A stretch of 64,000 bases of DNA, taken from Phorcus lineatus (lineage: Eukaryota > Mollusca > Gastropoda > Trochida > Trochidae). The stretch covers positions 48,555,220-48,619,219 of the forward strand of contig OV121089.1 in NCBI GenBank assembly GCA_921293015.1. The letters run 5' to 3'. This document shows positions 61,301-63,775 of the stretch, piece after piece. How positions within the stretch are numbered: the first letter of the stretch is position 1; every line of letters begins with the position of its first letter. A program made the position numbers and the translations under genes. The notes under the pieces were generated by a model. That model was not told the DNA's origin. It saw only the letters and a list, made by a program, of their open reading frames with translations, and did no database searches.

Positions 61301-63775
61301 GCAGCTTCTACCCAGTGTACCCACCTTCTTCACTGACCTTGACATTGAGCCGGCGCTGCTTCACGGGGATCTCTGGAGTGGGAACGCCGGCCTAGCATCA
61401 GGGGAACCAGGTAGGTAGTCCTTGTTTTTAATCAAAGTAAATGCGATACTCAAAGAAAGGCTAACAATGCAAACTCCCTGTACCTTGCACTCTTGCCCAA
61501 TTCTCATTTCAATCAGATTGAACATTGATATCTTGTACCTGTGATCTGAGGAATACTAAAACTAAAACTTAAACTATGGATGGTAAAAGATCACTTCACA
61601 TATCCGCATACTAGTGTTCAGATTCGATGTGGTTTCATCCTATTTAGATGAGATTGAGTCATTTGACAGCCAAATATTGCTGATGAGTTACAGAGGTAAT
61701 GGCTGTATTTTTGTGTTCAAAAGTTGTCATGGTAAACTATGCAAAATTTTATGAGTTTCATTTTCAACAGAGTGCAAACTGATAAACTCAAGTTTTTCAA
61801 TGGCATTTGGAAATGATTTACATGAGAAAGGGAAGATTTTCTTGATAAGCCTCATTTATTGTGAAACTTACTCAGCAGTATGAGGAAGGCTATTAGAGAG
61901 TTTGACAAGAATTTCATAGGGGATTTGCAGGGGATTTGCAGTACATTATAGTCAAAAACACACTTTTGCAAAGCAACTAAAAAGAGAAAAAAAATTATCA
62001 CTTAAACCAATCTTTCCTGCTGTGTTTGCAATTATTTTCGTTTCAGTTTAAGTGACAATGCTCATCAGAGCCTGCTATTCCAGCTCAGCCAGCAAGCTAG
62101 TAAATTTCATGTCTTTTCTACGTCGAGGCTTGTGCATAATAAAGTGGTAAGCCTTGTAGTACGACAAAGGGGTGGGGTAGGGTGTTTTGAATTTCAATAT
62201 TGAAGATGATACACGCAAAGTACTAAAATGGATACAAACGTCAGTGGAAATATAAATGTGCATGATGAACTATTTTCCTTGCGAGCATTGGAATTTGCCT
62301 TGCAAAAGTGAGCCTGTGACTTTATCTGTCAAGAATCTTGTACTTTTGTTTCTATAATGATAAGATGTGTTAATCATCGATCTGACTCACTTACCTCAAT
62401 GATATTTGATAAGCATATAAATGAAAAATCTTTACAAATCATGGTGAACTCAACATTTCAGTTATCTTTGACGCAGCCAGCTTCTACGGACACTCAGAGT
62501 ATGATCTTGGTATTGCTAACATGTTTGGGGGGTTCGGATCCTCGTTCTTCAAAAACTACTTTCAGGTGTTACCACAGCAGCCCGGCTATGAAAATCGTCT
62601 GCAGCTGTATGAGTTGTTTCACTATCTCAACCACTGGTAGGTTAACTCTGGGTACCTATACTAGACGTTTCACTAACTTAACCACTGGTAGGATAACTCA
62701 ACTACTCTCTTTGGGGAGCTATACTAGACGTTTCACTAACTTAACCACTGGTAGGATAACTCAACTACTCTCTTAGGGGAGCTATACTAGACGTTTCACT
62801 AACTTAACCACTGGTAGGATAACTCAACTACTATCTCTGGGTAGCAACTCAACTACTATCTCTGGGTAGCTACCCAAGTTGTTTCACTATCTCAACCGCT
62901 GGTAGGTTAACTCAACTACTCTCTTTGGGTAGCAACTGAAGTTGTTGCACTATCTCAACAGCTGGTAGGTTAACTCAACTACTCTCTCTGGGTAGCAACT
63001 GAAGTTGTTTCACTATCTCAACCACTGGTAGGTTAACTCAAATACTATCTCTGGGTAGCTATACTAAATGTTTCACTATCTCAACCGCTGGTAGGTTAAC
63101 TCAACTACTATCTCTGGGTAGCTACCCAAGTTGTTTCACTATCTCAACCGCTGGTAGGTTAACTCAACTACTCTCTCTGGGTAGCAACTGAAGTTGTTGC
63201 ACTATCTCAACAGCTGGTAGGTTAACTCAACTACTCTCTCTGGGTAGCAACTGAAGTTGTTTCACTATCTCAACCGCTGGTAGGTTTATAACTCAACTAC
63301 TATCTCTGGGTAGCTACCCAAGTTTCACTATCTCAACCGCTGGTAGGTTAACTCAAATACTATCTCTGGGTAGCTATACTAAATGTTTCACTATCTCAAC
63401 CGCTGGTAGGTTAACTCAACCTTGTATACTATCTCTTGGTAGTTATAATATTGCAGTTTCTAGTGACTGTTAGTACTTTCTAATGCTATCTTCACAATTG
63501 ACCGAATGTAACATGACTTCGTTTCTATTATTGATTCTCATTCGTTGATTTTAAAAAATGCCGTTGGTTTTAAACTATATTTGTAGGCGTTGAATAACAA
63601 TGAATCAGGAAAATTTTACGAACTCAACAAATTATCTTCTAATTCATTTACCTTCCAAAAAGATGTGTAGCATGTACATGTATGTTTCAGGAACCACTTC
63701 GGGGGAGGATACAAGAGCAGCGCTCTACAGATCATCAAGAGTCTTCTCAAGGGAAAGAAGAAAAATTGTCATTGA
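52387..63775 (+). CDS. FN3K: Ketosamine-3-kinase (fructosamine-3-kinase family)
   Basis: Eight exons: 52387-52527, 54526-54609, 54893-54996, 57364-57523, 59538-59588, 61269-61410, 62462-62636 and 63691-63775; 942 nt, 313 residues (human FN3K and FN3KRP 309). The family phosphorylates ketosamines on glycated proteins, causing deglycation. Visible parts: Gly-rich ATP loop GRGGGGCIS (18-26) with Cys24 at the position of the redox-sensing cysteine described in this family; VFVK with ATP-binding Lys41; [27 protein letters not shown]; catalytic HGDLWSGN (212-219, Asp214); metal-binding [14 protein letters not shown] (Asp231); and a [15 protein letters not shown] end. The frame is open upstream through a GA-rich tract, but 52387 is the first in-frame ATG and matches the family start. 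Donors of exons 4 (GTTAGA) and 5 (GTCAGA) are weak. A single invertebrate gene may equal FN3KRP rather than FN3K; the sequence alone does not decide. Confidence 0.96.
53137..54333. repeat. Minisatellite, 29-bp unit, about 40 copies
   Basis: Units contain GATGCTAGATGGGCTACTAT followed by GTATAAGGA or variants (GTATATGGA, GTATAAAGA, GCAAAAGGA). Shortened units (TAGCTAGATGGGCTACTATT) occur several times. It fills most of FN3K intron 1 and ends about 190 bases before exon 2. Confidence 0.96.
56120..56905 (+). mobile_element. LINE remnant, C-terminal part of ORF2 (L1/Tx1-like)
   Basis: Successive pieces read [40 protein letters not shown], then [16 protein letters not shown] and [24 protein letters not shown] sequence (here [20 protein letters not shown]), the conserved order of the post-reverse-transcriptase region of L1/Tx1-type LINEs. 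The frame changes at least twice, and the reverse transcriptase core and endonuclease are absent. In FN3K intron 3, sense to the gene. Confidence 0.8.
57640..57952. repeat. Minisatellite, 31-bp unit, about 10 copies
   Basis: Nearly identical units containing CACAACACAACCCAAACCAC followed by ATCACACTGAA; the first unit is shorter. C-rich on one strand and without G for most of its length. In FN3K intron 4, beginning about 115 bases after exon 4. Its homogeneity suggests recent expansion. Confidence 0.97.
58735..58805 (+). repeat. Decayed end of the CAGTCTGATT TIR family
   Basis: GATTAGAATCGGCTGTGCTC followed by CGAGGAAAATTTTGAAAA and CACTCTAGCGAGGTTTGAAC parallels the left terminus of the element at 35479. 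A comparably diverged piece is near 23200-23240 (CGTTTAATCGACCAAGTTCC). No second terminus seen. Confidence 0.5.
59985..61255. repeat. Minisatellite, 39-bp unit, about 32 copies, with 429-bp higher-order repeat
   Basis: Units carry CATGAGCTGCTACCATATGG and differ in a variable half (GTGTATCAATGGTGG, GGTGGGGCTATGCTGG and others). The sequence of variants around 60106 recurs around 60535, a shift of 429 bases, exactly 11 units. Because 39 is a multiple of three, long frames are open on both strands ([13 protein letters not shown] repeated); they are in a different frame from exon 6 and I treat them as non-coding. It occupies FN3K intron 5 and ends about 15 bases before the exon 6 acceptor. Confidence 0.95.
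62612..63440 (+). repeat. Minisatellite of about 63 bp containing copies of the exon 7/intron 7 junction
   Basis: The last 25 or so bases of FN3K exon 7 plus its donor, ending in TTTCACTATCTCAACCACTG followed by GTAGGTTAACTC, recur about twelve times through intron 7 as TTTCACTATCTCAACCGCTG or close variants, each followed by GTAGG(T/A)TAACTC. The rest of the unit is CAACTACTCTCTCTGGGTAG and a linker. Every unit therefore carries a copy of a good 5' splice site. Confidence 0.95.

Follow-up and report, generated by a model that had tools for sequence, protein, structure and literature searches.

The fructosamine-3-kinase (FN3K) orthologue at the right end of the 64,000-nucleotide stretch of Phorcus lineatus DNA analysed here (contig OV121089.1; hereafter the window) has most of its intron 7 occupied by a 63-bp minisatellite, the core of which comprises the last 25 coding bases of exon 7 together with the first 12 bases of the intron. 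Two questions follow from this arrangement, namely how a minisatellite came to contain an exon-intron junction, and how the gene is spliced when a functional donor is followed by a series of near-identical copies of itself.

FN3K encodes a sugar-repair enzyme, and its model consists of eight coding exons on the + strand and seven introns, all of GT-AG type, with phases that give one open frame; the start codon and the CAGCAG option at exon 5 were analyst's picks. Exons 1–6 lie at 52387–52527, 54526–54609, 54893–54996, 57364–57523, 59538–59588, and 61269–61410, followed by exon 7 (62462–62636), which ends in phase 2, and the coding part of exon 8 (63691–63775), which closes with a TGA stop at 63773–63775. 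Exon 7 encodes part of the fructosamine kinase domain, and on its own matches Pfam PF03881 over 62476–62637 (2e-18). The predicted product is 313 aa long, and its residues 1–306 align to the FN3K of PDB 9woi with no gap across the exon 7/8 junction (LNHW/NHFG); the match to FN3K chains (2.7e-103) is stronger than that to the chloroplast ribulosamine kinase (9.9e-67). The original prediction, which placed the end of exon 7 directly before the first GT of the array and the acceptor at 63690/63691, is confirmed on both counts, as exon 7 ends at 62636 in a model collinear with solved FN3K, and exon 8 begins at 63691 behind an AG at 63689–63690. Given this collinearity of the 313-aa model with FN3K across the junction, production of the normal protein requires the first donor.

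The array was found by TRF. Across the whole window, the motif CTGGTAGG is present at 13 sites on the + strand, all within 62634–63410, and at a single - strand site, 1533. The 13 copies of CTG/GTAGG represent one authentic donor and 12 decoys, spaced by 51, 63, 63, and 88 bp and then by eight steps of 63 bp, so that 10 of the 12 steps equal the unit length. Copy 1 (62603–62653) contains the exon 7 tail and the authentic donor at 62637 (CTG/GTAGGT), and, lacking 12 bases of the intronic part, measures 51 bp. Copies 2–4 (62654–62867) carry weaker donors, CTG/GTAGGA, at 62688, 62751, and 62814; copies 2 and 3 agree at 97%, copy 4 belongs to their type, and all three have A at +6. Copy 4 also has an extra 25-bp duplication that produces the 88-bp spacing at the fourth step. 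Copies 5–13 (62868–63439) have donors that match the authentic nonamer, at 62902, 62965, 63028, 63091, 63154, 63217, 63280, 63343, and 63406. The pairwise identities, with copies 5 and 9 98% alike and copies 6 and 10 100% alike, show a pattern as in block-wise growth. The claims that the end of exon 7 and its GT form the first unit of a tandem array of about 63 bp, and that coding-derived bases plus donor recur about twelve times downstream, are thus both upheld. Of the bounds originally proposed, 62612 and 63440, the second stands, since the repeat fades out near 63440, while the first is refined, as faint similarity to the exon may extend back as far as 62603. In the rest of intron 7 (63440–63690), no kinship with the repeat unit was detected beyond the first bases (221 of 500 shuffles score equally). 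An extension of the array past its last unit was rejected, the score of 63430–63500 being reached by 22 of 500 shuffles and the match there coming from the last unit as it fades. Descent of the unit from an old dimer of two junction copies was likewise rejected, as its halves are only weakly alike (284, 105, and 92 of 2000 shuffles equal).

The evidence that the unit derives from exon 7 begins with the segment at 62612–62648, in which 25 exonic and 12 intronic nucleotides recur exactly, over all 37 nt, in copy 7 at 63003–63039; exact matches in 500 mononucleotide shuffles of the array reached 15 at most. When each of exons 1–6 was compared with its own intron, the longest exact match was 6–8 nt, while exon 7 gave 31 in the same measure, and a comparison of the array unit with all eight FN3K exons yielded a strong match to exon 7 only (score 69, equalled by 0 of 200 shuffles). 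From position -21 to the donor, 16 of 21 columns are identical to the exon in all 12 decoys, and agreement drops to 6–9 of the 12 at -24 to -22. A weaker likeness continues to -34, where the exon reads AGCTGTA and several units read AGCTATA, and could either descend from the exon or mark a short stretch of similarity where the first duplication was joined.

The repeated exon stretch encodes LFHYLNHW, and the same place in solved relatives reads LFNYLNHW in FN3K and LYHYLNHY in the chloroplast ribulosamine kinase. The residues at the end of exon 7 align to LYQLFNYLNHW in PDB 9cx8 and to LYLLYHYLNHY in PDB 6oid, which we take to be the human and Arabidopsis enzymes, respectively. As the copied stretch encodes anciently conserved residues, which a random intronic repeat would not, the array almost certainly derives from exon 7, a direction of copying that rests on protein conservation rather than on an array-free relative. 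A dispersed satellite or transposon-borne repeat would have unit copies elsewhere; a DNA search of the assembly (957,807,699 bases in 74 contigs) found a single match, the array at its own locus, although this search skips simple repeats and very common words and its single match is not absolute. The proposal that the array originated in a duplication straddling the junction is supported by the 37-nt match across exon and intron and by the conserved coding stretch within it.

The reading that best accommodates these observations, to which we assign a probability of about 0.85, is that of a neutral array, in which a junction-straddling duplication expanded to 13 copies, the first donor is used, and splicing errors at the decoys are mostly cleared by nonsense-mediated decay (NMD). 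A tandem duplication of a ∼51–63-bp segment over the exon 7/intron 7 boundary would have come first, with slippage or unequal exchange later enlarging it to the present minisatellite; the exon-derived units are observed directly, while the mechanism and order of growth are inferred. That growth did not simply proceed outward from the exon, since copy 7, and not the neighbouring copies 2–4, is the most exon-like. The first donor, which alone is joined to the complete exon and its acceptor, would be chosen through exon definition and proximity, and the occasional use of a decoy, most likely one close to the exon, would give a transcript that stops after the junction tryptophan and is mostly destroyed by NMD. 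Under these conditions the array would be tolerated, because the first donor keeps a complete exon attached and the products of errors are cut short and removed.

The predicted consequence of decoy use follows from the reading frame, which runs across the donor as CAC TGG TAG. All 12 decoy-spliced mRNAs would end at the TAG within the authentic donor (62638–62640, + strand), immediately after the tryptophan codon. This stop lies 47 nt ahead of the new junction for the first decoy and 110–765 nt ahead for the other 11. Under the NMD rule of 50–55 nt, 11 of the 12 decoy isoforms are likely NMD targets, with a stop at least 110 nt ahead of the junction. The earlier expectation that a later donor would retain intron sequence and alter the C-terminus is sound to this extent, but the anticipated mere disturbance of the C-terminal helix is too mild, as the TAG would remove the entire exon 8-encoded part, starting at NHFGGG. 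The array additionally holds 29 YAG sites with 7–12 pyrimidines among the 16 bases upstream, compared with 9–13 for the gene's own seven acceptors, and pseudo-exons built from unit fragments are conceivable on this account.

The strongest point against the neutral reading is that donor strength does not distinguish the authentic site. Nine of the 12 decoys share its nonamer, and in pairing with the U1 5′ end these nine and the authentic donor all give -8.8 kcal/mol, while the three nearest decoys, weaker at +6, give -7.7. Donor sequence alone accordingly fails to explain a preference for the first site, nine decoys being its equals by U1 pairing, and any enhancers within those 25 nt would have been multiplied together with the exon tail. 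That the weak donors should be the three nearest is suggestive, but the three form one lineage of copies and count as one event. With nine decoys sharing both the nonamer and a very similar exon tail ahead of it, it would mainly be position and the rest of the exon that tell the donors apart. The locus thereby offers a clean natural test of how the spliceosome picks one of thirteen near-identical donors, in which the built-in TGG TAG makes any splicing error easily recognized in RNA.

The same donors could be read as functional. The array would then be a splicing rheostat of variable copy number, in which decoys compete for U1 and divert a length-dependent share of transcripts to NMD, thereby tuning FN3K output. 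Such a role would fit the retention of GTAGG in all 13 copies and of the authentic nonamer in nine of the 12 decoys, as well as the in-frame TAG that turns each decoy isoform into a truncation. It would also have a parallel in human ABCA7, in which the length of an intronic VNTR is correlated both with skipping of exon 19 and with reduced expression, though not with retention of a repeat unit (PMC5954066). Among the 12 decoys, however, 29 of the 63 columns are invariant with a longest run of 8 (755 of 20000 column permutations give a run as long), and of the two invariant 8-base runs one is plain intronic sequence. Special conservation of the donor core as a mark of selection was rejected for this reason, and because the copies had been located through the donor motif itself. 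RNA structure was also rejected as a function of the array, as its z of -4.68 against 20 shuffles is not evidence of function when the shuffles destroy the repeats. Signs of selection on the decoys were looked for among the 12 copies and none was found that stands, and regulation of this kind appears improbable.

A still smaller chance attaches to the copy number or structure being an artefact of assembly. Tandem arrays are prone to miscounting and only a single assembly is at hand, in which copies 5 and 9 (98%) and copies 6 and 10 (100%) are very similar. The unit variants are nevertheless distinct and ordered, with copies 2–4 of one type and several types among copies 5–13, and the contiguity of the assembly (958 Mb in 74 contigs) suggests that it was built from long reads. 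That an ordinary intronic minisatellite came first and the end of the exon took its sequence from it by gene conversion is hardly credible, as an unrelated repeat would not encode residues common to distant solved relatives, even if the identity of copy 7 with the exon over 37 nt, with the nearer copies 2–4 less alike, leaves some room for exchange.

A neutral array of this origin has known relatives. The human CBS gene contains a 31-bp VNTR of 16–21 copies named c.1444_1467+7(16_21) (PMC2630376), which is entered in a table as "exon 13-intron 13" (PMC1395315). Read literally, this name describes a unit that joins the final 24 coding bases of an exon to the first 7 bases of its intron, and each CBS unit would carry a copy of the donor because it spans both. 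The FN3K unit similarly includes a coding exon tail and donor, with 25 exonic nt in the 37-nt exact match, but at 63 bp it has a longer intronic part than the CBS unit and is present in 13 copies. It also belongs to another gene and species, and is known from one assembly, whereas copy number is polymorphic in CBS. In intron 18 of human ABCA7, a 25-bp VNTR begins at the exon 18 donor, and its unit starts with GT (PMC5954066). Use of the donor one VNTR unit downstream yields an isoform that retains a single unit and contains a premature termination codon (PTC) leading to NMD; it is one of two frameshift isoforms reported at 14 ± 6% and 2 ± 1%, and cycloheximide raises the PTC transcripts (PMC5954066). 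The first unit of the FN3K array likewise contains the authentic donor (62637), although the ABCA7 array starts at the first GT of the intron, and the part of that report consulted makes no mention of an exon tail (PMC5954066).

More broadly, internal tandem repeats at exon-intron boundaries in human segmental duplications are associated with alternative splicing and novel introns; these were found through recent paralogues with variable copy number, while the FN3K array is a single locus (PMC2812944). A duplication crossing an intron-exon boundary has also been described that copied splice signals and gave rise to a new intron (PMC4974935), whereas in FN3K an intron was lengthened and no new one is shown. 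As for intron gain by tandem duplication in FN3K, the rest of intron 7 and its acceptor show no kinship with the unit (221 of 500 shuffles score equally), and a paralogue on another contig, C7, is intronless at this place. The view of the original prediction that this is an unusual origin for a minisatellite does not hold in light of the close precedents in CBS and ABCA7 (PMC2630376, PMC5954066). A full-text search of one literature collection for FN3K, intron, and minisatellite returned no earlier description of the array. The kind is already known, and the FN3K array is a further, clean member of it in another gene, extending the CBS/ABCA7 class beyond the human genes of the cited papers.

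The C7 paralogue (L003; C7:60320008–60320235, - strand) is a diverged FN3K-like sequence whose reading frame continues uninterrupted across the site of intron 7, and it was rejected as an array-free comparator because it has no intron there. The abundance of minisatellites was sampled in 20 stretches of 10 kb taken at even steps, 10 from C15, the window's contig, and 10 from C7, with arrays counted if they had a period of 15–150 and at least 5 copies. The C15 sample contained 7 arrays in 100 kb, in 5 of 10 stretches, and the C7 sample 0 in 10 stretches, hinting at an uneven distribution between chromosomes. FN3K itself has four arrays in 11.4 kb, in introns 1, 4, 5, and 7, compared with the 7 in 200 kb of sampled genome. 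Those other than the intron 7 array consist of 29/58-bp units in intron 1 (53150–54332), 31-bp units in intron 4 (57639–57950), and 39-bp units in intron 5 (59994–61249). A search for FN3K exon-derived sequence in the other arrays of the window (four arrays against eight exons each) gave nothing convincing, the best being a match between the array at 57639 and the exon 2 end (equalled by 3 of 200 shuffles, uncorrected), and among the four intronic arrays of FN3K only that of intron 7 is clearly exon-derived. The intron 5 array ends 19 bases ahead of exon 6 and lies within a stop-to-stop open frame of 481 codons (59950–61392) that extends over exon 6 but differs from the enzyme's reading frame. 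Outside FN3K, a 33-bp array of 16 copies at 19407–19985 falls within a 193-codon open frame, counted from stop to stop, with AIARAKALLYT repeats.
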